Of a DNA stretch of 64,000 bases, positions 17,733 to 39,934 are shown in pieces. The DNA comes from Devosia sp. ZB163 (GTDB lineage Bacteria > Pseudomonadota > Alphaproteobacteria > Rhizobiales > Devosiaceae), in assembly GCF_028613635.1 (NCBI RefSeq), contig NZ_JAQRMY010000001.1, positions 1,096,331-1,160,330 on the forward strand, read 5' to 3'. The position numbers and the translations under genes were made by a program. Position 1 is the stretch's first letter. Each line of letters begins with the position of its first letter. The notes under the pieces are model-generated. The model was not told the origin of the DNA, did not search any database, and was given only the letters and a program-made list of their open reading frames with translations.

Positions 17733-18311
17733 TCAGGTCCCGGTGTTGAGCACGATCTCTTCCTGGAAGCGCGGCAGGAAGTACTCGGTGTGACGGATGT
17801 CGAGCGTTTCCTTGATGATGTAGCCGACAAGCGGCTGATACGGATAGGTCACCTCGGCGGCAACTATCCAGCCATTGGCGTTGCGGGCCAACTGGCTCAT
17901 CTCCGTGGTCGCGGCGAGCGGAAAGGGGCTGTTTGCCACGCGCGGCACCCCCGATCCGTTGGCGGAACTCCAGCGGACAGTGGCCACACCGTCGTCGTTG
18001 ACTTGTATGAAGGTAACGACCTGCCCAAGCCCGGCGGCGGAAAACGGCTGGATGATGTTCGCGGCTGCCATGAAGTAGTCGTCGAGCCTGGATTGATCGA
18101 TCTCACCCCGTTCGCGGGAGACCAGGTCCGCCATCGAACTTGCGATCACCGCCACCTTGCGGTCGGCGGTGAAGATCTGCGTGCCTTCCACCGATCCCAG
18201 GTACAGTGCGAGGAGCAACGGGACCACGAGGGCAAACTCCACTGCCGCGACGGCGCCGTCGTCGCGCGCGAAAGTCCCGATACGGCAGTGTTTCAGGAGC
18301 AATCGCTGCAT
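17733..18311 (-). CDS. TadG/TadE-like pseudopilin of the Tad system
   Basis: This 192-residue protein starts at ATG 18311. A short positively charged leader ending RDDGAVAAVEFALVVPLLLALYLG is followed by a hydrophobic helix and a ~150-residue periplasmic domain. The motif G-A-V-A-A-V-E-F resembles a TadE/TadG pseudopilin leader, cleaved after Gly, with Glu at +6. It is much shorter than classical TadG, which carries a von Willebrand-type domain, so it is better called TadE-like. Its start overlaps the preceding tadE by 19 bases. It probably takes part in priming or anchoring Flp pili. Confidence 0.75.
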   Translation of the reverse strand: MQRLLLKHCRIGTFARDDGAVAAVEFALVVPLLLALYLGSVEGTQIFTADRKVAVIASSMADLVSRERGEIDQSRLDDYFMAAANIIQPFSAAGLGQVVTFIQVNDDGVATVRWSSANGSGVPRVANSPFPLAATTEMSQLARNANGWIVAAEVTYPYQPLVGYIIKETLDIRHTEYFLPRFQEEIVLNTGT

Positions 18312-18901
18312 CCGAAGGGCTCGTTCCTGAAGACGCGCGAGGCACCAAGGAGGCGGTCGCCGCCCGCCAGGGTTGCGAAGTTGATGCCGAAGAAGTCGGC
18401 GATGGTCGGCCACTTGTAGAATGCGCGGACCAGCACGACGTCCGCGCCGGTGCCGGGCACGTAGTCGCTGCTGATTTTCCAGTCGCACCCATCCTCGCCG
18501 CATTCGTCCCCGATCTCGAGCGGATAGCCGACCGTTGCAGCGCTGAAATCGGTCACGACGGCGACGCTGACGCGCAGGCGCTCGTTGGCTCCGTTGCTGC
18601 AGTCGAAAAGTCCATAAAGACCCTCGCAGATTGCACCCCGGAAGTTGTCGCCGTTCCATTCCAGCGTCTGGGCCTGACCGGTACGGACCAGGCGGGCGGA
18701 GTCGTTGACCGCACTGTCGAGGATTTGGCCGGCCAGGAAAATCAGTGCGGTCTCCAGAATGGCCACGATGACCATGAAGAAGGGAATGGCGAGGAAACCG
18801 AATTCGATGAGAGTGGCGCCTCGCTCATCGCGACAGAAGGCTCGGCCGCGGCGAACCGTGGTCTGCATGAACCCTTTCAGTCCTGTCGCGCGCTTGCGCA
18901 T
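18293..18901 (-). CDS. TadE-family pseudopilin
   Basis: This 202-residue protein has the Tad pseudopilin leader RDERGATLIEFGFLAIPFFMVIVAILET at residues ~29-56: Gly before the cleavage point, Glu near +5 and one hydrophobic helix. A Cys-containing periplasmic domain follows. ATG 18901 is preferred over TTG 18919; the internal Met at residue 12 is also possible. It lies just upstream of, and overlaps, the second TadE-like gene. Both are transcribed away from the main pilus operon. Confidence 0.82.
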   Translation of the reverse strand: MRKRATGLKGFMQTTVRRGRAFCRDERGATLIEFGFLAIPFFMVIVAILETALIFLAGQILDSAVNDSARLVRTGQAQTLEWNGDNFRGAICEGLYGLFDCSNGANERLRVSVAVVTDFSAATVGYPLEIGDECGEDGCDWKISSDYVPGTGADVVLVRAFYKWPTIADFFGINFATLAGGDRLLGASRVFRNEPFGCSDCS

Positions 18902-19002
18902 CGAGCCCCGCAAAAGCAAGCAATTGCCCGGGGCACGCTAGCGCAAAGCACCTATCGAATGGTTAGTGCGAAGTCGCCATTTGTGCCGTTTGGTACGCGT
19001 GC

Positions 19003-19017
19003 TTAACGGCGGGTTAG
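19003..19017. promoter_or_regulatory. CtrA-like box (TTAA-N7-TTAG)
   Basis: TTAACGGCGGGTTAG matches the CtrA consensus TTAA-N7-TTAA with one mismatch. It lies at the 3' end of the CpaC-N-like gene, about 100 bp upstream of tadE on the minus strand. CtrA control is inference. Confidence 0.35.
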
Positions 19018-19454
19018 CGAGCGGCGGACTCGATGGATTTCGAGGCGCCGATGGTATCGCTCGAGTATGCCGCGTCGTCGCCCAGCATGATGATCGGCTG
19101 GCATACCGGTTCACACGCAAGGCTGGTACGGCTTGTCCCCATGTAGACGGTAACGAGACCCGCCTGGTCCTGCACCACCTCGACCATCGTGTCGGCGATC
19201 GGGCTGCCCGCGCCGTCAAGGACGATGAGGTTGGTCTGGCCGTAGCTCTTGCCGGTGAGAACGAGCGTCTGCGGATCCTGGATCGTGACGTCGGCGATGC
19301 CGGGGTTTCCAATGATAACCGTCGCTGCCGGCGCACTTATCCTGAGGATGCGCGCCATGTTGACGTTGACGCTCACGGGAGCCGTCTCGGCCAGCGCCGG
19401 GGTGGCCATGAGGAGCGAGACGGCGATTGCGGCTAGTCTGGCATTGAGCGGCAT
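19014..19454 (-). CDS. stand-alone CpaC N-terminal domain protein (pilus assembly)
   Basis: This 146-residue exported protein has a signal peptide at residues 1-23 (MPLNARLAAIAVSLLMATPALA). The mature part aligns with the N-terminal ring domain of the secretin CpaC encoded downstream. Here it reads ATVIIGNPGIADVTIQDPQTLVLTGKSYGQTNLIVLD; CpaC has KEVIVSQPGVANAIL...GAGESNIFFMD. The secretin channel domain is absent. ATG 19454 is chosen over GTG 19484 because the signal peptide then begins properly. It may be an accessory to the outer-membrane secretin or a periplasmic partner of the pilus. It is divergent from the pilin gene. Confidence 0.78.
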   Translation of the reverse strand: MPLNARLAAIAVSLLMATPALAETAPVSVNVNMARILRISAPAATVIIGNPGIADVTIQDPQTLVLTGKSYGQTNLIVLDGAGSPIADTMVEVVQDQAGLVTVYMGTSRTSLACEPVCQPIIMLGDDAAYSSDTIGASKSIESAAR

Positions 19455-19641
19455 GGCGACCTTGAACGCGTACTCTATCACCAAGAGAGTGTTGCGTGGA
19501 TTGGTGAATAATTCGCAAACGCCACCTCAGATCGCCATGGCCTCAGGGTGCTGGTTAGTCTTGGAGTGGGTGACGGGGGGTGAATACTTGAAGTCAGCAG
19601 TGTATCAATTTTACGGACCGCATTAACGGTCTGCTCAGCAT

Positions 19642-19673
19642 GCCGAAAGCCCTTGTAAACCGGGGCTTTCGGC
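19642..19673. other. strong hairpin upstream of pilin gene
   Basis: GCCGAAAGCCC and GGGCTTTCGGC form a perfect 11-bp stem with a 10-base loop. No T-run follows on either strand, so it is not a classical terminator. It may act in the pilin mRNA leader or as a terminator of an unseen small RNA. Confidence 0.5.
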
Positions 19674-19683
19674 CGAATTCTCA

Positions 19684-19698
19684 TTAACTCAATTTCAA
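19684..19698. promoter_or_regulatory. CtrA-like box (TTAA-N7-TCAA)
   Basis: TTAACTCAATTTCAA has one mismatch to TTAA-N7-TTAA and lies 107-121 bp upstream of the Flp pilin start, where a CtrA site would be expected in alphaproteobacteria. Confidence 0.35.
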
Positions 19699-19804
19699 GA
19701 GGTCACGACTAGCGTTCGGCTCATGTTCGATGTGTGACGTGTCGAACGGTGCCGACGCATCAAGAGATGCGCCACAGAATGACGTGTGCAAGGAGCCAAC
19801 AAGA

Positions 19805-20002
19805 ATGAACACTCTCGCTCGTTTCGCGAATGACGAGTCTGGTGCCACCGCCATCGAGTACGGCCTGATTGCCGCGCTCATCGCCGTCGGCATCATCGCA
19901 GCAGCAACCCTTCTCGGCGACAGCCTGTCGGGGCTGTTCACCGGTATCTCGAGCCGCATCGGCGAAGTCGAAATCCCGGAAGCCGCTGCCACCACGCCGT
20001 AA
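19805..20002 (+). CDS. Flp-family type IVb pilin
   Basis: This 65-residue pilin is the main subunit of the Tad pilus. The leader MNTLARFANDESG is cut by the prepilin peptidase before ATAIEYGLIAALIAVGIIAA, with the invariant Glu at +5 and adjacent Tyr. A short C-terminal tail follows. AAGGAG at 19790-19795 gives strong initiation at ATG 19805. A strong hairpin just after the stop would raise pilin mRNA over the downstream genes. Confidence 0.95.
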   Translation: MNTLARFANDESGATAIEYGLIAALIAVGIIAAATLLGDSLSGLFTGISSRIGEVEIPEAAATTP

Positions 20003-20028
20003 TAGTCCCAAGGGGCTCGCAAGTTTCG

Positions 20029-20052
20029 GAGGGGACCCGCAAGGGTCCCCTC
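20029..20052 (+). terminator. hairpin after pilin gene (partial terminator)
   Basis: GAGGGGACCC/GGGTCCCCTC forms a perfect 10-bp stem with a GCAA tetraloop, followed by TCTCATTTGGGC. The T-run is weak, so some read-through to cpaA is likely. Confidence 0.7.
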
Positions 20053-20128
20053 TCTCATTTGGGCTTTGTTAACCGTAGATGGTCAGACTGAGCACTGCCG
20101 GGCAGCCGGCTTTTCGCACAGGCCCGCC

Positions 20129-20641
20129 ATGCCCTCTTTCATCCCGATCGCAGCGCTTTTCATCTTTCCGATGCTGATGGCTTTCGCCGGAGCCTCAGAT
20201 CTGTTGACCATGCGCATCACGAACAAGCTCGTGCTTCTCGTGGCAATCGGCTTCTTCCCCGTCGCCCTCGTCGCCGGGTTGCCGCTTGAAACCATCGGGG
20301 TCCACGTTGCGACAGCCCTGGTTGTTCTCGCCGTCACAATCGGCTTCTTCGCCCTCGGCTGGATAGGCGGAGGCGACGCCAAGCTGATTGCCGCGACCAC
20401 TCTGTGGTTCGGACTGACCGGCCTGCTGCCCTATCTGCTCTACGCTTCGCTGCTCGGCGGCGCTCTGACACTGGTCCTCCTCGCCGTCCGCAGTAGGCCC
20501 TTGCCGCTTCTGCTCAAGCAGGTGACCTGGATCGATCGGCTGCACGACACCAAGACCGGCGTGCCCTATGGCATTGCACTGGCGGCGGCCGCCATCCTGC
20601 TTTATCCCGGCAGCATCGTCTTTCAACGACTGGTCGGCTGA
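20129..20641 (+). CDS. cpaA: prepilin peptidase CpaA (A24 family)
   Basis: This 170-residue membrane aspartic protease cleaves Flp pilin and the TadE-like leaders. The two catalytic aspartates are in GASDLLTMRI (first loop) and the GGGDAKL motif near residue 87. About six hydrophobic helices are seen. ATG 20129 is chosen because MPSFIPIAALF begins the first helix. It is a short CpaA-type enzyme without the N-methylase domain. It follows the pilin hairpin and precedes cpaB. Confidence 0.92.
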   Translation: MPSFIPIAALFIFPMLMAFAGASDLLTMRITNKLVLLVAIGFFPVALVAGLPLETIGVHVATALVVLAVTIGFFALGWIGGGDAKLIAATTLWFGLTGLLPYLLYASLLGGALTLVLLAVRSRPLPLLLKQVTWIDRLHDTKTGVPYGIALAAAAILLYPGSIVFQRLVG

Positions 20642-20651
20642 AAGTCTTACG

Positions 20652-20667
20652 TTTACTTGACGTTAAC
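20652..20667. promoter_or_regulatory. CtrA-like box (TTTA-N7-TTAAC)
   Basis: TTTACTTGACGTTAAC differs from TTAA-N7-TTAAC at one position. It lies about 110 bp upstream of cpaB. Confidence 0.35.
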
Positions 20668-20686
20668 CGTCACAGACAAGCATCGA

Positions 20687-20701
20687 TTAACCAAACTTTG
20701 A
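20687..20701. promoter_or_regulatory. CtrA-like box (TTAA-N7-TTGA)
   Basis: TTAACCAAACTTTGA is a second one-mismatch match to TTAA-N7-TTAA in the same cpaA-cpaB gap, 20 bases after the end of the first. Confidence 0.35.
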
Positions 20702-20774
20702 CCCTTTGCCGCGATAGTCGAAGGCAAGTGTAACCGGGGCTCGTTACGGGCTCGTTGGGTCTGGAGTCTGGGCG

Positions 20775-21758
20775 ATGAATGCCTCGCGTATCATCCTGCT
20801 GGTTGTTGCGTTGGTGGCCGGCGGACTTGCGGCGTTCCTTGCCATACGCGGCAGCGCCCCGCAGCAAGTGGTGGTCGAAGGCCCAACGCAGGTTGTCGAG
20901 GAGCAAAAGGCCAAGGTCCTCGTGGCGCAGAGACCCATCGGTGTGGGGCAGCGCCTCGCTCCCGCAACCATACAGTGGCAGGATTGGCCCGAACTCGCAG
21001 TCCGCCCGGAGTACATCACCGAAGCGGCGTTTCCCGATGCAGTGACCCAGATGCAAGGGGCGGTCGCACGCTTCGAGATATTTGCCGGCGAACCGATCTC
21101 AGAGCAGAAGCTCGTTCGCTCCGACCAGGGCTATCTCTCGGCCGTGCTGACCAAGGGTATGCGCGGGGTGTCCGTGCCGGTGAGCGCCGATGCCGCAGCC
21201 GGCGGCTTCGTGGTACCCAACGACCGCGTCGACGTCGTGATGACGCGTGGCGGCGTCAGTCAAACGATCCTCACCAACGTGAAGGTGCTGGCGATCGGCA
21301 CCCGCCTCGGCCAGGTCAACGAGAAGGCCAAGAAGGAAGGCGAGCAGCCTGGACCGGTCGACAACAGCACCTTCCAGGGCGGAACCATCGCGACCCTGGA
21401 GCTGACACCCGCCCAGGGCGAGCTCATCATCAACTCCAGCCGCATGGGCGCGCTTTCGGTCGTGCTGCGTTCGATCGCGGACTTCGCCCAGGCGCCCGGC
21501 GATGCTGTTCGCAACGAAACCAGCCGTGCCGTCAAGATGATCCGCTTCGGTGTCGGCGCAACCGTGATGCCGTCGGACCCCGGCTCCGCGGCAACGGTTG
21601 CCGACGCCGCCTACACCGAGGTGTCCACGACCAGCGACGTTGCTGATGGCGACGGTGCCGGAGCGGCGTCCGCCGGCGAGTCCACCGTCACCGATGAAGC
21701 AGAGATCGATCGCCGGCTGGCAGCCGGAGAGACCGGCTCAGAAGAGCAGGCCCAATGA
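20775..21758 (+). CDS. cpaB: Flp pilus assembly protein CpaB
   Basis: CpaB (327 aa) is a periplasmic protein of the Tad system, anchored by an N-terminal helix (residues 5-25). A SAF-type beta-clip domain follows (VLVAQRPIGVGQRL...), and then the RcpC/CpaB domain with MRGVSVPVSADAAAGGFVVPNDRVDVV. The C-terminus is acidic and low-complexity (residues ~285-327). It may stabilise the CpaC secretin. Its stop overlaps the cpaC start, so the two are translationally coupled. Confidence 0.93.
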   Translation: MNASRIILLVVALVAGGLAAFLAIRGSAPQQVVVEGPTQVVEEQKAKVLVAQRPIGVGQRLAPATIQWQDWPELAVRPEYITEAAFPDAVTQMQGAVARFEIFAGEPISEQKLVRSDQGYLSAVLTKGMRGVSVPVSADAAAGGFVVPNDRVDVVMTRGGVSQTILTNVKVLAIGTRLGQVNEKAKKEGEQPGPVDNSTFQGGTIATLELTPAQGELIINSSRMGALSVVLRSIADFAQAPGDAVRNETSRAVKMIRFGVGATVMPSDPGSAATVADAAYTEVSTTSDVADGDGAGAASAGESTVTDEAEIDRRLAAGETGSEEQAQ

Positions 21759-23257
21759 TGCGTGAGGATTACGTGATGAACCCGGTGAGTGCCCACAAGC
21801 CGATGCGCGGCCTCCTTTCGCAAACAGTGCAGCTCACGCTGGCGGCTGCAATCATGGGGACTTTGCTGAGCCTCGCGCCGCTGGGCTTCCAGCATGCCTA
21901 CGGTGCCGAGCAGACCCACCTGCGCGTGTCCTCGTTAGGGACGACCCAGGTGGTCAGCCTCGACGTCAACAAGTCGATGCTGATCGACCTGCCGGTCGAC
22001 GTGAAGGAAGTCATCGTCTCCCAGCCGGGCGTCGCCAACGCGATCCTGCGCAACAAGCGGCGGGCCATTGTCCAGGCCGTCGGGGCAGGTGAGAGCAACA
22101 TCTTCTTCATGGACGCCAACGGTCGCACCATCGTGGTGCTCGACGTCAGCACCAAGGGCTCGAACATCCAGAGTGCGAACATCGCAGCAGTGCTGCGCGA
22201 CACCTTCGCCAAGGTCATCCCCAAGGCCAAGATCGACGTCGAAGCCGTCGCGGTGACAGGCGTCGATGGCGCGATCCTCAACCGCATCGTGCTTTCGGGC
22301 GACGCCAACAGCGCCGACGAGGCCCACAAGGCCATGGCGATCGCGGCCCAGTTCGCCGGTGGCCCGGACAATGTGACCAGTGTCCTCAACATCGAGGGCT
22401 CCCAGCAGGTCATGCTGAAGGTCACCGTCGCCGAGGTGAACCGCAGCCTCGCCAAGCAGTTCGGCATCGACCTCTCCGGCAGCTTCTCGAGCGGCGGGTT
22501 GACGACGTCGTTCGTCAGCGATCAGCCCCTTGGCGGTGCCTCCAACCTCTTTTCCAACAGCAGGATCGGCGGTTCCGTGACGGCCGGGCCGTTCACCATA
22601 GATGCCCAACTGCGCGCCATGGAGCAGCGCGGCGCCTCTCGCACGCTTGCCGAGCCCGTGCTTACGGCCATCTCCGGTCAACCCGCAACTTTCACCGCAG
22701 GCGGGCAATTCCCTGTGCCTACGGGCGTGAAGGACGACACCGTGTCGTTCGCGTACCAGGATTTTGGTGTGACCCTCGCGTTCACCCCCACGATCAAGTC
22801 AGACGGCATGATCGGCCTGGAGGTGGATACCGCGAGCAGCGAACTCAGCCCCGAGGGCAGCATCACCGTCGGCGCCATCACGCTGCCGGGCATCAAGAAG
22901 CGCGAGGCCAAGACCTCAGTCGAGATCCGCGCTGGCGAAACCCTCGCCATTGGCGGCCTGATCCAGGATACGACGCGTGCCCAGGTGCACCGTCTGCCGG
23001 GTCTCGGCGACATACCGATCCTGGGCACCCTGTTCCGCTCGCGCGATTTCATCCGCTCGCAGACCGAGATGGTGATTCTCGTGACTCCCTACCTCGCCCA
23101 GGCGACGAGGGAAGTTCCCGAGCTTCCTACGGATCGGATGGTATTTGCTAACGATGCCGAGGCTATTTTCCTCGGGCGCATCGAGACGATGTACGGTGTC
23201 GGCCCCGCCGGCACGCGCGGGAGCTACGACGGTGCCGTCGGCTTCGTGCTGGATTGA
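21755..23257 (+). CDS. cpaC: Flp pilus outer-membrane secretin CpaC
   Basis: CpaC (500 aa from ATG 21755) forms the outer-membrane channel for the pilus. A signal peptide lies within residues ~18-50. The N-terminal ring domain follows (VDVKEVIVSQPGVANAIL), then a BON-like region and the secretin core with AMEQRGASRTLAEPVLTAISGQPATFTAGGQFPVPTG. The C-terminal part has the GETLAIGGLI and PILGTLFRS motifs typical of secretins. An internal ATG at 21776 has the better ribosome site (GAGGA) and may be the true start. No CpaD pilotin-like gene follows; cpaE begins 15 bases later. Confidence 0.93.
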   Translation: MMREDYVMNPVSAHKPMRGLLSQTVQLTLAAAIMGTLLSLAPLGFQHAYGAEQTHLRVSSLGTTQVVSLDVNKSMLIDLPVDVKEVIVSQPGVANAILRNKRRAIVQAVGAGESNIFFMDANGRTIVVLDVSTKGSNIQSANIAAVLRDTFAKVIPKAKIDVEAVAVTGVDGAILNRIVLSGDANSADEAHKAMAIAAQFAGGPDNVTSVLNIEGSQQVMLKVTVAEVNRSLAKQFGIDLSGSFSSGGLTTSFVSDQPLGGASNLFSNSRIGGSVTAGPFTIDAQLRAMEQRGASRTLAEPVLTAISGQPATFTAGGQFPVPTGVKDDTVSFAYQDFGVTLAFTPTIKSDGMIGLEVDTASSELSPEGSITVGAITLPGIKKREAKTSVEIRAGETLAIGGLIQDTTRAQVHRLPGLGDIPILGTLFRSRDFIRSQTEMVILVTPYLAQATREVPELPTDRMVFANDAEAIFLGRIETMYGVGPAGTRGSYDGAVGFVLD

Positions 23258-23272
23258 TGGAGTGAGTTTGTC

Positions 23273-24553
23273 ATGAGTCTGCTCTCTCGGGATGGTGGCA
23301 AGTCCACCGAGGAACCCGCCCTCGACATCGTGGCTGGTGCCCGCCTGCTCCCGCGCATTACCATCCAGGCTTTCTGCGAGCACAGCCAGACCGCGCAGCT
23401 GGTGGAATCCGCGGTGCATGACCGGCGCATGTCCAAGGTCGCGCTCACCACGCACAATGGCGGGCTCGACGGGGCGATCGAGACCTATCGGTCCAATCCC
23501 ACGCCGAACCTGATCATTGTCGAGACCTCCCTCAGCCCCGAGGAGATCCCGTCCGCGCTCGAGCGTCTCGCCGCGGTCTGCGACGCCGCCACGAGGCTGA
23601 TCGTCCTCGGGCATGTCAACGACGTGCTGCTCTACCGCGAGCTCATCCGCTCCGGCGTCTCCGAGTATATCGTGCTGCCGGCCGCGGCGCTGACCATCGT
23701 CGACGCCATCAGCGAGCTGTTCGCCGCCGAGGGCGCCGCCCCGATCGGTCGCACCATCGGCTTCATTTCCGCCAAGGGCGGTTCGGGCGGGTCCACCGTC
23801 GCCCACAATGTCGCCTGGGCGATCAGCCAGCACCTGCGCCAGGACACGCTGATCCTCGACCTCGACTTCGCCTTCGGCACCGCCGGTCTCAACTACAACC
23901 AGGATCCGCCCCACGGCATCGCCGACGCCATCGGCAACAGCCAGAAGATGGACCAGACGATGCTCGACCGCCTGATGAGCAAGGCGGCCAACCATGTGAG
24001 CCTGTTGACCGCCCCCGTGGTCCTCGACCGCCCCTTCGATTTCGAGGAGCGCGAGTTCGAGCAGGTGATCGAGCTGAGCCAGAAGTCGATGCCGATCGTG
24101 GTGCTCGACATCCCGCACGTCTGGAGCAGCTGGGTTCGCTACACCATCGGCACGATCGACGAGATCATCATCGTCGCCGAGCCGGACCTGGCGAACCTGC
24201 GCAACGCCAAGAACCTGTCGGACACCATCAAGGCGCTGCGCCCGACCGAGAGCGAGCCGCTGCTGGTGATCAACAAGGTCGGCATGCCGCGTCGTCCGGA
24301 AATCGCCCCGAACGAGTTCGCCACCTCGGTGGAATGTCGCCTGATCGGCCAGCTCGGCTTCGACGCGGCGACCTTCGGCACGGCCGCCAACAACGGCCAG
24401 ATGATCGCCGAGGTCTCGGCCAACAACAAGTCGAACGAGGCATTCCGCGCCATCGGCATGCATGTGACGGGCCGCAATGCTCCCGAGCGCAGCAGCTCGC
24501 GCATGCCGAGCCTCAAGCTGCCCTCGTTCATGATGAAGCGGAAGCGCGCCTGA
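23273..24553 (+). CDS. cpaE: Tad pilus localisation ATPase CpaE (MinD/ParA-like)
   Basis: CpaE (426 aa) has an N-terminal receiver-like domain (~residues 28-155) without obvious phosphorylation residues. A MinD-type ATPase follows with the deviant Walker A SAKGGSGGST at ~166-175 and LILDLDFAFGTAG after it. The C-terminus is basic (PSFMMKRKRA). In Caulobacter CpaE places the pilus machine at the pole. It follows cpaC directly and precedes cpaF by 14 bases. Confidence 0.92.
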   Translation: MSLLSRDGGKSTEEPALDIVAGARLLPRITIQAFCEHSQTAQLVESAVHDRRMSKVALTTHNGGLDGAIETYRSNPTPNLIIVETSLSPEEIPSALERLAAVCDAATRLIVLGHVNDVLLYRELIRSGVSEYIVLPAAALTIVDAISELFAAEGAAPIGRTIGFISAKGGSGGSTVAHNVAWAISQHLRQDTLILDLDFAFGTAGLNYNQDPPHGIADAIGNSQKMDQTMLDRLMSKAANHVSLLTAPVVLDRPFDFEEREFEQVIELSQKSMPIVVLDIPHVWSSWVRYTIGTIDEIIIVAEPDLANLRNAKNLSDTIKALRPTESEPLLVINKVGMPRRPEIAPNEFATSVECRLIGQLGFDAATFGTAANNGQMIAEVSANNKSNEAFRAIGMHVTGRNAPERSSSRMPSLKLPSFMMKRKRA

Positions 24554-24567
24554 AAGGCTAGTCCTCG

Positions 24568-26040
24568 ATGTTCGGCAAGCGTACCAGTTTCGGCGGCAAC
24601 ACTCCGGGCGCCGCACCCGCTCCGCGGCCCACCGTCGCCCCGGTGGCCGCCGCTGCTCGGCCTGAACCCTCACGCGCGCTCGATACGGCCAAGCGCCCCG
24701 ACGAAGTCGTCGATGTGCGCAGCCCGGAAGCGGCAACGCGCGACAAGGAATACTTCCAGACCAAGTCGGCGATCTTCAACGCCCTGATCGACTCGATCGA
24801 CCTGAGCCAGCTCGCGACGATGGAGCAGGAGACGGCGCGCGAGGAAATCCGCGACATCGTCGCCGAGATCATCGCGCTCAAGTCGATCATCATGTCGATC
24901 TCCGAGCAGGAAGACCTGCTCGAGGACATCTGCAACGACGTGCTCGGCTACGGCCCGCTCGAGCCGCTGCTGGCCCGCGACGACATCGCCGACATCATGG
25001 TGAACGGGTCGCAGAAATGCTACATCGAGGTGGGCGGCAAGGTGCGGCTGACGAACGTCCGCTTCCGCGACGATGCGCACCTGATGAACGTCTGCCAGCG
25101 CATCGTGAGCCAGGTCGGCCGCCGCGTCGATGAAAGCTCACCGATCTGCGACGCGCGCCTTCCCGACGGTTCGCGCGTCAACGTGATCGCCCCGCCGCTC
25201 TCCATCGACGGCGCCGCACTCACCATTCGTAAGTTCAAGAAGGACAAGCTGACCCTCGCGCAGCTGGTCAAGTACAACTCGATTTCGCCCGAAGGCGCCG
25301 AGGTGCTGCGCATCCTCGGCCGCGTGCGCGCCAACATCCTGATCTCCGGCGGTACCGGCTCGGGCAAGACGACGCTGCTCAACTGTCTCACCGGCTTCAT
25401 CGAGAAGGACGAGCGCGTCATCACCTGCGAGGACTCGGCGGAACTGCAGCTGCAGCAGCCGCACGTGGTGCGCCTCGAAACCCGTCCGCCCAACCTCGAG
25501 GGCGAAGGCGAGATCACCATGCGCGATCTCGTCAAGAACTGCCTGCGTATGCGCCCCGAGCGCATCATCGTGGGCGAAGTGCGCGGACCGGAGGCATTCG
25601 ACCTCCTGCAGGCGATGAACACCGGCCACGACGGCTCGATGGGCACGCTCCACGCCAACTCGCCGCGCGAGGCGCTCAGCCGTCTCGAGTCGATGATCAC
25701 CATGGGCGGCTACTCGCTGCCCAGCCGCACCATCCGCGAGATGATCGTGTCCTCGATCGACGTGGTGGTCCAGGCCGCCCGTCTCCGCGACGGTTCGCGC
25801 CGCATCACCCACATCTCCGAGGTGCTGGGCATGGAAGGCGACGTGATCGTCACCCAGGACGTGTTCCTCTACGACATCGTCGGCGAGGACGCGAACGGCA
25901 ACCTGCTCGGCCGGCACCGCTCCACCGGTATCACCAAGCCGAACTTCACCGAGCGCGCCCGTTACTACAACGAGGAAGCCAACCTCGTTGACGCGCTGGA
26001 GCGCTCGAACATCGAGCACCACGAGATCCTCAGTGCATAA
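24568..26040 (+). CDS. cpaF: Tad pilus assembly ATPase CpaF (TadA)
   Basis: CpaF (490 aa) is the secretion-type hexameric ATPase that drives pilus extension and probably retraction. A low-complexity Ala/Pro N-terminus (~35 aa) precedes the N-terminal domain. The motor domain has Walker A GGTGSGKTT at 261-269, the Asp box in ERVITCEDSAELQLQ, Walker B RIIVGEVRGPEA, and the His box TGHDGSMGTLHANSPREAL. It lies between cpaE and tadB with short gaps (14 and 9 bases), consistent with one operon. Confidence 0.95.
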   Translation: MFGKRTSFGGNTPGAAPAPRPTVAPVAAAARPEPSRALDTAKRPDEVVDVRSPEAATRDKEYFQTKSAIFNALIDSIDLSQLATMEQETAREEIRDIVAEIIALKSIIMSISEQEDLLEDICNDVLGYGPLEPLLARDDIADIMVNGSQKCYIEVGGKVRLTNVRFRDDAHLMNVCQRIVSQVGRRVDESSPICDARLPDGSRVNVIAPPLSIDGAALTIRKFKKDKLTLAQLVKYNSISPEGAEVLRILGRVRANILISGGTGSGKTTLLNCLTGFIEKDERVITCEDSAELQLQQPHVVRLETRPPNLEGEGEITMRDLVKNCLRMRPERIIVGEVRGPEAFDLLQAMNTGHDGSMGTLHANSPREALSRLESMITMGGYSLPSRTIREMIVSSIDVVVQAARLRDGSRRITHISEVLGMEGDVIVTQDVFLYDIVGEDANGNLLGRHRSTGITKPNFTERARYYNEEANLVDALERSNIEHHEILSA

Positions 26041-26049
26041 GGGGCGCGC

Positions 26050-27030
26050 ATGAATCCGCTCATTCTCGCGATCCTCGCGGCGGTCTGTGTCGCCGCCGCC
26101 GGCTTCGCGCTGGTGCCCTCGATCCTGGGCAACAGCGCCCGTGCCGACAAGCGCATCAAGGCCATGCACGGCGACGTCCGCGCCAATCGCGCGACCGCCG
26201 AAGTGGCCCGCACGCGCGATACGCGCCGCAAGGAACTGCAGCAGACGCTGAAGGCGCAGACCGCGGCGATCGAGAAAAAGAAGAAGAGCATCCCGCTCGG
26301 CGACCGGCTCTACCAGGCGGGGATGAAGCTGAAGCCCGCGGGCTTCATTCGCAACTCGATCATCCTTGGCGCGGGGGTGTTCGTTGTCACGTTCATCCTC
26401 CAGCTCGAGCTCATCTACTGCCTCGTCTTCGCCATTGCCGGTGGTTACCTGCTGCCGCGCATGTATGTCGGCCGGCGGCGCAAGAAGTACCAGAACGCCT
26501 TCCTCGACGAGCTGCCCAACGCCGTAGAGGCCATCGTGCGCGGCGTGAAGTCGGGTCTGCCGCTCAACGACTCGATGCGCCTCGTGGCGCGCGAGGCCAA
26601 GGAGCCGATCAAGTCGGACTTCCAGCGCGTGCTCGACCAGCAGTCGGTCGGCAAGACCATCCAGGAGGCGGTGGTCACGCTCTATGATCGCGTGCCGGTA
26701 CCTGAAGTGAACTTCTTCGTCGTGGTCATTACCGTGCAGGCCCAGTCCGGCGGCAACCTCTCCGAGGCGCTGGGCAACCTCGCCCGCGTGCTGCGCAACC
26801 GCAAGAAGATGAAGGAGAAGGTGAAAGCCATGTCCTCGGAAGCCAAGGCCTCCGCGGGCATCATCGGCTCGCTCCCGATCATCGTTGCCATCCTCGTCTC
26901 GCTGACGACACCGACCTACCTGCTGCCGATGATCGAGACACCGATCGGCAACCTGCTGCTTGGTGTCGCGGCGATCCTGATGTTCATGGGCGGGTTCATC
27001 ATGAACCGCATGGTCCAGTTCGAAGTGTAG
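26050..27030 (+). CDS. tadB: Tad inner-membrane platform protein TadB (T2SSF domain)
   Basis: TadB (326 aa) has one N-terminal helix, a basic stretch with a KKKKS cluster, two central helices near residues 100-135, a cytoplasmic GspF domain (LDELPNAVEAIVRGVKSGLPLNDSMRLVARE) and two C-terminal helices. It pairs with TadC to form the inner-membrane base on which CpaF acts. It lies 9 bases after cpaF and 9 bases before tadC. Confidence 0.93.
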   Translation: MNPLILAILAAVCVAAAGFALVPSILGNSARADKRIKAMHGDVRANRATAEVARTRDTRRKELQQTLKAQTAAIEKKKKSIPLGDRLYQAGMKLKPAGFIRNSIILGAGVFVVTFILQLELIYCLVFAIAGGYLLPRMYVGRRRKKYQNAFLDELPNAVEAIVRGVKSGLPLNDSMRLVAREAKEPIKSDFQRVLDQQSVGKTIQEAVVTLYDRVPVPEVNFFVVVITVQAQSGGNLSEALGNLARVLRNRKKMKEKVKAMSSEAKASAGIIGSLPIIVAILVSLTTPTYLLPMIETPIGNLLLGVAAILMFMGGFIMNRMVQFEV

Positions 27031-27039
27031 GGGCGCGCA

Positions 27040-28044
27040 GTGGATCTCGTAGCAACCCTCACCAACACACAGTTCCTCGTCGCGGTCCTCGCCGCGGTCT
27101 CTGCCGCGGCTGTCGTCTTCTCGATCGGCGCCACCTTCTTTTCCGGCGGATCAAAGGTACGCCAGCGCATCAGGCGTGTGGCGCTCGAGCGCGAGAAGAT
27201 GCGGGCCCAGGAAATGGCGCGCCTGCGCGGCAGTGGGGACCCCGACCAGCCGACGCGGAGCATCCGCCAGGCGGCCGGCAAGGACTACATGAAGAACGTC
27301 GTCGAGAAGTTCTCGCTCGAGAAGGCGTTCGTCGACGACAAGACCGCCGAGACGCTGGCCCGCGCCGGCTATCGCGGCCAGTCCGCCATGACGACCTGGC
27401 TGTTCGTCCGGTTCGTCACGCCCTTCGCGCTGTTCTTTCTCGGCTTCGCCTACATGAGCCTGACGGTGTTTGCCGACAAGCCGCTGTGGCTGAATGCCAT
27501 CTACGCGCTGCTCGTCGGCCTCATCGGCGCCTACCTGCCGATCGTCCTGCTCAAGAACCAGACGGTGAAGCGCCAGGCCTCGATCCGCCGCGCCTGGCCG
27601 GACGCGCTGGATCTCATACTGCTCTGCGTCGAATCCGGCATGTCGGTCGAGCACGCGTTGAAGCGTGTCGCCAAGGAAATGGGCTCCCAGAGCGCGGAAC
27701 TCGCCGAGGAGATGACCCTCACGACGGCCGAGCTCAGCTTCCTCGAGGACCGGACCCGCGCCTACGACAACTTCGGCCGCCGTACGGGCCTCGACAACGT
27801 CAAGGCCGTGATGCAGGCGCTGATCCAGGCCGAGCGGCACGGTACCTCCGTGGGTACTTCGCTGCGCGTGATGGCCGAAGAAGGTCGCGAGCAGCGCATG
27901 ATGGACGCCGAAAAGAAGGCGGCCGCGCTGCCGCCCAAGCTCACCGTCCCGCTGATCGTGTTCTTCCTGCCGGTGCTGTTCATCGTGATTATCTCCCCGG
28001 CGATGATCAGGGTGTTCGCGAACGGGATGATGGGCGGCGGCTGA
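27040..28044 (+). CDS. tadC: Tad inner-membrane platform protein TadC (T2SSF domain)
   Basis: TadC (334 aa; GTG start) repeats the TadB plan: N-terminal helix, linker, paired helices (~110-165), GspF domain with WPDALDLILLCVESGMSVEHALKRVAKEMG, and a C-terminal helix. It is the last gene of the plus-strand Tad operon and is followed by a clear terminator hairpin. Together with TadB it forms the platform for Flp pilin insertion. Confidence 0.93.
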   Translation: MDLVATLTNTQFLVAVLAAVSAAAVVFSIGATFFSGGSKVRQRIRRVALEREKMRAQEMARLRGSGDPDQPTRSIRQAAGKDYMKNVVEKFSLEKAFVDDKTAETLARAGYRGQSAMTTWLFVRFVTPFALFFLGFAYMSLTVFADKPLWLNAIYALLVGLIGAYLPIVLLKNQTVKRQASIRRAWPDALDLILLCVESGMSVEHALKRVAKEMGSQSAELAEEMTLTTAELSFLEDRTRAYDNFGRRTGLDNVKAVMQALIQAERHGTSVGTSLRVMAEEGREQRMMDAEKKAAALPPKLTVPLIVFFLPVLFIVIISPAMIRVFANGMMGGG

Positions 28045-28076
28045 GCCAGGCCCGCCGCTCCGAGCCAGTAAAGAAG

Positions 28077-28100
28077 AGGGCGCCTCGCGGGGCGCCCTTC
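28077..28100 (+). terminator. Rho-independent terminator of the Tad operon
   Basis: AGGGCGCC/GGCGCCCT forms a perfect 8-bp stem with a 5-base loop, followed by TCCTGTATT. It sits 33 bases after the tadC stop. Confidence 0.7.
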
Positions 28101-28132
28101 CTGTATTCGGGATAAGCGGGGTAGGGCGCGCG

Positions 28133-28921
28133 CTAGCCCTGCTTCTTCACCAGGTCCCAGCGGTTCTGCTGGGTGAGGAGCGAGCGGATATAGGCCATGT
28201 TGGCCTCGACGCCGTCGGCGGGCAGCTCGGCCGCGAACAGGGTGCGGCTTTCGTCGAAGCGGCCCTGCAGCCCCACGATCAGCGCCAGGTTCTGGCGGAT
28301 CTGGCTGTTGGCGCCGCGCATGGAGACGGCCGCACGCAGTTCCTTCTCCGCCTTGTCCAGCTCGTTGGTCATGGCATAGGACAGCCCCAGGTTGGCGCGG
28401 ATACCCGCCTGGTCCGGTGCGATCTTCTGCGCCTGGGCGTAGAACGTCCGTGCTTCCTTGTTGCGCCCGCTCTGGTCGAGGATGGCGCCTTTCACCATCA
28501 GCTCGTTCCAGCCCGGCGTCGCCGGGTCGATGGCGCGATCGATGACGTTGAGTGCCCGGTCGAACTGCCCCGACGCCGACAGCGCCTTGGCGAAGGCGAC
28601 CAGCATCTCGCGGTCGTTCTTGAACTTCATCACGCCGTTCTCGAGCACGGCGACGGCCTGCGCACTCTGGCCGTTCGCCCTGAGCGCCGAGGCGTAATAG
28701 AAGATGGTCGACCGGTCGCCCGGGTTCTTCTTGTAGTGCTGTTCGAGCTTGGCGAGCGCGGCGGCCTGCTTGTTGGCCGGCATCGCGGACGCACCGGTAT
28801 CGCCGATGCTTCCCGTCGTCATCGGGCTGGTGGCACAGGCCGAGAGTGCGAGGGATGCGGCGCCGGCGAGGAGCAGCGCCCGCAATGGCTTGAGGTCTGA
28901 TTGAAAGAGGCGAGAGAACAC
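28133..28921 (-). CDS. tadD: TadD-like TPR lipoprotein
   Basis: This 262-residue outer-membrane lipoprotein begins at GTG 28921, with AGGA eight bases upstream; a TTG at 28966 would extend it. The signal sequence ends with the lipobox LSAC (ALSACATSP). About four or five tetratricopeptide repeats follow, with motifs such as AKALSASGQFDRALNVIDRA and ANLGLSYAMTNELDKAEKELRAA. TadD is thought to act as pilotin or scaffold for the CpaC secretin. It converges on tadC and is divergent from the aminopeptidase. Confidence 0.9.
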   Translation of the reverse strand: MFSRLFQSDLKPLRALLLAGAASLALSACATSPMTTGSIGDTGASAMPANKQAAALAKLEQHYKKNPGDRSTIFYYASALRANGQSAQAVAVLENGVMKFKNDREMLVAFAKALSASGQFDRALNVIDRAIDPATPGWNELMVKGAILDQSGRNKEARTFYAQAQKIAPDQAGIRANLGLSYAMTNELDKAEKELRAAVSMRGANSQIRQNLALIVGLQGRFDESRTLFAAELPADGVEANMAYIRSLLTQQNRWDLVKKQG

Positions 28922-29074
28922 TTTGGTCGTCCTGCGAAGCGGATTGCCGAGCCCGGTAACCAGCAATAATTGATTAACCCTAACAGCGCGTTAAGTAGCT
29001 CTGCGGAGGGCGTTGTCACTTCTACGAGTGGGGCGTACACCTTGGCTGAAGCTCCTCACTCGCAGAGTTCTCTG

Positions 29075-39696: not shown

Positions 39697-39934
39697 TTTA
39701 TGGCCCTCCACTCTTTGAACAACGCAGAGGCTAACCCATCGATCGGCGGGGCGGGGTGGCGGTCGCGAAAATGTCAGATTGCGTGAGGCGCTCGCCGGCG
39801 GCCCCATTAAGCGGGCGTTTACGGCGTCGGCGAAAGTGAGCGCCTAAGTACAGTCAGTTGCACGGCCGGCAAGACTCCCTTCACCAGCCTCGGACACAGC
39901 TGGGGGCGGTTGGCTCCAGAAGGACGCGGGCATC

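Follow-up and report, generated by a model that had tools for sequence, protein, structure and literature searches.

Conserved TTAA-N7-TTAA words precede the Tad pilus genes of Devosia sp. ZB163 and are highly likely to be CtrA binding sites, which would switch the tad promoters on together. The pilus would very probably be produced at certain stages of the cell cycle only. CtrA times cell division and development in relatives. The strong argument for these predicted sites is their conservation, not their rarity.

The window (the whole stretch of 64 kb that was analysed) has a GC content of 66%. Its Tad pilus locus, recognised by Pfam, spans 17733-28966 (Table 1), and its CpaF shares 89% identity with the Devosia nitrariae protein.

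Table 1. Genes, predicted CtrA boxes and predicted -10-like hexamers of the tad locus, sorted by position
Feature	Coordinates	Strand	Sequence	Basis or remark
Second TadE-like pilin gene (tadG position)	17733-18314	-		Pfam TadE
tadE-like minor pilin gene	18293-18868	-		Pfam TadE
tadE proximal predicted box	18952-18966	-	CTAACCATTCGATAG	three mismatches
tadE distal predicted box	19003-19017	-	CTAACCCGCCGTTAA	one mismatch; overlaps the stop codon of the divergent gene (19014-19481)
Gene of a small secretin N-terminal-domain protein, divergent from flp	19014-19481	-		Pfam T2SS-T3SS_pil_N
Candidate box of the divergent gene	19505-19519	-	TTTGCGAATTATTCA(CC)	two or more mismatches
flp predicted CtrA box	19684-19698	+	TTAACTCAATTTCAA	one mismatch
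flp predicted -10-like hexamer	19710-19715	+	TAGCGT	conserved CTAG.GT block
flp pilin gene	19805-20002	+		Pfam Flp_Fap
cpaA predicted box	20058-20072	+	TTTGGGCTTTGTTAA(CC)	two mismatches
cpaA/tadV prepilin peptidase gene	20129-20641	+		Pfam Peptidase_A24
cpaB distal predicted CtrA box	20652-20666	+		one mismatch; starts 35 bp before the proximal box
cpaB proximal predicted CtrA box	20687-20701	+	TTAACCAAACTTTGA	one mismatch; over the predicted -35 region
cpaB predicted -10-like hexamer	20713-20718	+	GATAGT	similar box distance among promoters, by inspection
cpaB/rcpC	20775-21758	+		Pfam RcpC, SAF
cpaC, cpaE, cpaF, tadB, tadC (close packed)	21755-28044	+		Pfam Secretin, T2SSE, T2SSF (cpaC, cpaF, tadC); names cpaE and tadB given by position
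tadD, TPR protein gene	28133-28966	-		Pfam TPR families; the real start is probably inside this frame
tadD predicted CtrA box	28980-28994	-	TTAACGCGCTGTTAG	one mismatch

Boxes in the tad spacers of Devosia

Words matching TTAA-N7-TTAA with at most one mismatch are found at six places in the window (19003, 19684, 20652, 20687, 28980 and 39807), against a mean of 0.61 and a maximum of 3 over 100 dinucleotide shuffles. Plain TTAA is counted only 13 times over the whole window, with 8 occurrences inside 19003-28991. The four words reported by the first-pass annotation, at 19003, 19684, 20652 and 20687, were all found as given, in or beside the gaps before tadE, flp and cpaB. The boxes at 18952, 19505 and 20058 had been missed because each has two or more mismatches, and the one at 28980 because it lies outside the range covered by that annotation. 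The sixth word (39807-39821) lies beyond the tad locus.

Over the whole genome (4.59 Mb, 10 contigs), the pattern was found at 152 places and the reversed control word at 165. As there is no global enrichment over the control, rarity of the word is an insufficient argument. Of the nine pattern matches in 400 kb sampled from this genome, every one fell in DNA called intergenic; for the control word, 6 of 15 matches did. The objection raised beforehand, that intergenic DNA of this genome might generally be as dense in such words, did not hold: the four tad spacers (731 bp) contain 4 matches, i.e. ~5.5 per kb, ~37-fold above the ~0.15 per kb of the called intergenic DNA of the sample (61.8 kb), the length of which is probably overestimated since the simple codon-usage gene caller used may miss genes. 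Shuffled tad spacers contained 0.18 matches on average, and at least 4 were reached in 1 of 3000 shuffles.

Conservation was assessed in a genus set of 19 loci, consisting of those of 17 of the 18 other genus genomes, L017 and the window. A search with CpaB recovered the gene from each of the 18 genomes; L152 (G011) was left out, being a paralogue-like match only. Counts for flp exclude L141 and L142, where flp was not located, and counts for tadD exclude L135, L136, L141, L146, L147 and L149, in which tadD was not available. Ranks given below are those of 15-mers within a spacer, sorted by alignment-free conservation.

The proximal cpaB box (20687) is present in 19 of 19 loci and ranks first among the 119 15-mers of its spacer. 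The flp box is found in all 17 loci where the gene was located and ranks 8 of 309; ranks 1-7 belong to the leader that immediately precedes the start codon. TTAACC precedes cpaA in 16 of 19 loci, and the cpaA box is rank 1 of 112. At tadE, a one-mismatch box lies at most 160 bp from the gene in 14 of 19 loci, with varying position and sequence; the proximal box was recovered in 17 of 19 with a permissive pattern, and 18952-18966 is rank 1 of 131. The gene divergent from flp has a conserved TTTG-N7-TTCACC element (16 of 19 loci), and the tadD box is kept in 12 of 13. No box was found in the 140 bp before the operon-internal starts of cpaC, cpaE, cpaF and tadC in any locus examined.

The distal cpaB word (20652) is kept in part within the genus: its inner half, TTAACC at 20663, is conserved and its outer half is not. 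At the distal offset, a full box is present in 3 of 19 loci and the TTAA of the inner half in 17 of 19; the full word ranks 99 of 119. The comparison of orthologous promoters finds 19684, 20687 and 28980 strongly kept, 19003 partly kept and 20652 not kept as a full word. The other objection raised beforehand, a lack of conservation, did not hold either, but the treatment of the four sites as equals was rejected because of 20652.

Two other conserved stretches were observed. No part of the flp spacer is more conserved than the leader at 19777-19799 (around GTGTGCAAGGAGCC), which exceeds the CtrA box and could possibly serve translational control. An 18-bp stretch downstream of the tadD box (28962-28979; GGTTAATCAATTATTGCT, minus strand) is near-invariant in 12 loci, a conservation exceeding what a -10 requires.

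The 15-bp box is followed by a -10-like hexamer at ~27-32 from the box start, a distance that is near-constant across promoters (hexamers placed by eye); at cpaB, the conserved ATAG is displaced by one or two bases. With this distance, the box would lie over the predicted -35. In Caulobacter promoters activated by CtrA, the 5′ base of full motifs is reported to lie near -35 (PMC4287350), and the position predicted here matches that of the Caulobacter activator sites described (PMC4287350, PMC11264516).

A matrix was trained on five promoters and used to score the sixth over 127972 window positions and in a background sample. Held-out box-only ranks were 7-19 for five of the six promoters (cpaB, 7; tadD, 10; divergent gene, 13; flp, 18; cpaA, 19) and 111 for the tadE proximal box. 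With the -10 included, ranks were 5 for cpaB, 8 for cpaA, 13 for flp, 16 for the divergent gene, 20 for tadE and 22 for tadD. The positions outranking a held-out site include other tad sites. Per 64 kb of the background sample, the held-out box scores of five promoters were reached 1.4-8.3 times and that of tadE 84 times. Single boxes are thus not unique by score; conservation carries the case.

The tandem pair before cpaB

From 80 alphaproteobacterial CpaF loci, 76 with a cpaB start were retained (L067, L080, L089 and L095 have no cpaB match). At least one one-mismatch box lies within 220 bp of the cpaB start in 66 of the 76, and TTAACC in 64; ten starts have no full box. Coding stretches of equal length, used as control, contain boxes in 0 of 76 loci.

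The wider and genus sets were pooled into 91 loci, 82 with an anchor box and 9 without; L019 and L055 (too near a contig edge) and L144 (duplicate of L018) were dropped. Pooled counts are not independent events, as the loci share ancestry. At an offset of exactly 24 bp upstream from the proximal box, 48 of 82 loci have TTAA, whereas other offsets average 0.34; at exactly 35 bp, 20 of 82 have a full box, the average of other offsets being 0.12. Outside the genus, the corresponding counts are 31 and 17 of 63 loci. The tandem spacing is seen again in loci of Bradyrhizobium, Mesorhizobium, Rhizobium and Agrobacterium. Because these fixed offsets recur, the boxes at 20652 and 20687 are regarded as a pair set in tandem, their starts separated by 35 bp.

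No description of a fixed 35-bp double box at cpaB was found in the literature searched; as far as that literature shows, this double box and the set of tad boxes of Devosia are new in detail. The fixed double box is a specific feature that can be tested. Tentatively, and with doubt slightly outweighing confidence, the phased pair (35 bp between box starts, 24 bp between half-sites), along with one box at each of the remaining tad promoters, may represent an ancestral wiring of Hyphomicrobiales. In this group, CtrA would then directly time the Tad machine as a whole, the basal body as well as the pilin, unlike in Caulobacter, where the basal body comes first under GcrA and the pilin is added afterwards under CtrA.

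A second cpaB paralogue (48% identity) was observed at L153 (G000:C1:688000-702500), with a match spanning one in-frame TGA; the paralogue matches of G001, G002 and G018 likewise include one TGA.

Predicted control of the pilus and competing readings

The genome encodes CtrA (NCBIfam equivalog NF045991, 427.8 bits for a cut-off of 350; 95% to a query sequence) and a ChpT-family protein (HPTransfase). CtrA would be phosphorylated, probably by a CckA-ChpT relay. At flp, cpaA, cpaB, tadE and tadD, CtrA~P would bind the proximal box over the predicted -35, and it would probably do likewise at the small gene divergent from flp. Bound CtrA~P would recruit RNA polymerase, so that pilin, peptidase and assembly machine would be turned on together at high CtrA~P. 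Strength or timing may be tuned by the distal boxes, located 35 bp (cpaB) and ~50 bp (tadE) farther upstream. Support for the cell-cycle control put forward by the first-pass annotation comes from the conserved boxes and from the CtrA and ChpT-family genes of this genome; CtrA binding, its phosphorylation, activation (as opposed to repression) and timing are predictions drawn from the sequence. Pili are phage receptors and attachment organelles, and their timing would therefore affect surface attachment and phage sensitivity.

That the boxes are chance AT-rich words in AT-rich spacers is barely credible: although the word is genome-wide no commoner than its control and the tad spacers are AT-richer than the window (52-62% GC), shuffled spacers hardly ever reach the number of matches seen, and conservation extends over five promoters in up to 19 loci and over most of the wider relatives. 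Another protein with a preference for AT-rich DNA could instead be the main user of the sites, most likely MucR (H-NS-like, with a zinc finger) or SciP; it would silence the pilus, the role of CtrA being secondary or absent. Two MucR-family matches were found in the genome, Caulobacter pilA is reported to be inhibited by SciP and MucR (PMC11264516), and a TTAACAT motif is described in some SciP ChIP peaks (PMC4287350). The fixed 15-bp geometry with two halves, the near-fixed distance to the -10 and the 35-bp phasing nevertheless fit a response-regulator dimer at an activator site better than a protein binding AT-rich DNA in general, and the motif equals the Hyphomonas CtrA ChIP consensus, TTAA-N7-TTAAC (PMC7200025), which makes a silencer as main user improbable.

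Still less probable, if not quite as remote as chance, is that GcrA, along with CcrM methylation of GANTC sites, chiefly sets the timing, the route described in Caulobacter for the assembly genes. Two GcrA-family matches are encoded in the genome, and Caulobacter basal-body and assembly genes are reported as GcrA-induced (PMC11264516). In Devosia, GANTC is not conserved in the tad promoters (flp, 2 of 17; cpaA, 6 of 19; cpaB, 5 of 19; tadE, 4 of 19; tadD, 4 of 13), which speaks against the GcrA route for these genes, and in Brevundimonas subvibrioides cpaB, cpaD, cpaE and cpaF are described as not GcrA-regulated (PMC7987155). Direct binding by CtrA remains the preferred reading of the boxes.

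CtrA control of Tad pili is already known in Caulobacter, Sinorhizobium and Hyphomonas and is here extended, through predicted sites, to Devosia. The Caulobacter pilA precedent invoked by the first-pass annotation agrees with the literature: pilA of Caulobacter crescentus is described with four CtrA sites, Site 1 being over the -35 (PMC11264516). Both systems have a Tad pilin gene with a near-consensus box over the -35 (predicted in Devosia), and extra, more divergent boxes lie upstream in pilA as in Devosia tad promoters. The second pilA site, with an inner spacing of 6 bp, is placed 31 bases farther upstream than Site 1 (PMC11264516); Devosia flp has one strong box, and the double box is instead found at cpaB. 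The cpaA and cpaB promoters of Caulobacter are reported as occupied by CtrA in ChIP (PMC6169604). In Sinorhizobium meliloti, which belongs to the same order as Devosia, pilA1 is a direct positive CtrA target according to ChIP-seq and a lacZ fusion; the published account, as far as consulted, names the pilin gene only, whereas the sites of Devosia also precede assembly and minor-pilin genes (PMC4433202). In Hyphomonas neptunium, 14 pili genes are reported in the direct CtrA regulon (PMC7200025); this evidence is experimental and from another order, whereas the Devosia sites are predicted from sequence. Boxes are thus predicted at assembly, peptidase and minor-pilin genes besides the pilin gene, and the exact bases for mutation are given in Table 1.

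Candidate CtrA targets elsewhere in the genome

Among the perfect-word places listed, sixteen (L001-L016) were read and 10 of their proteins scanned. Perfect words were found before a gene encoding an N6-adenine methylase with a RAMA domain (CcrM type), before fliX/flgI, before the gene of a flagellar rod protein (flgB position; weak FliO match) and before genes of GGDEF proteins, among others; the hemE/maf spacer was also among the places read. CcrM-type adenine methylase, fliX/flgI and flgB are textbook CtrA targets. Within 397 bp, the ctrA promoter contains TTAA nine times and a single perfect TTAA-N6-TTAA, the N6 spacing being that described for Caulobacter ctrA P2 (PMC11264516).

The origin of S. 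meliloti is reported without CtrA motifs (PMC4433202). In Devosia sp. ZB163, the hemE/maf spacer (L002:1318-1743, i.e. G000:C1:337301-337726; 426 bp) contains two perfect and one one-mismatch CtrA words and resembles a CtrA-bound replication origin of the Caulobacter type; DnaA-like words were seen by eye only. GC skew of the sampled stretches is only weakly consistent with an origin at hemE/maf. Of 17 genomes of the genus, 16 have at least one one-mismatch box there, and its distance from hemE is often unchanged.
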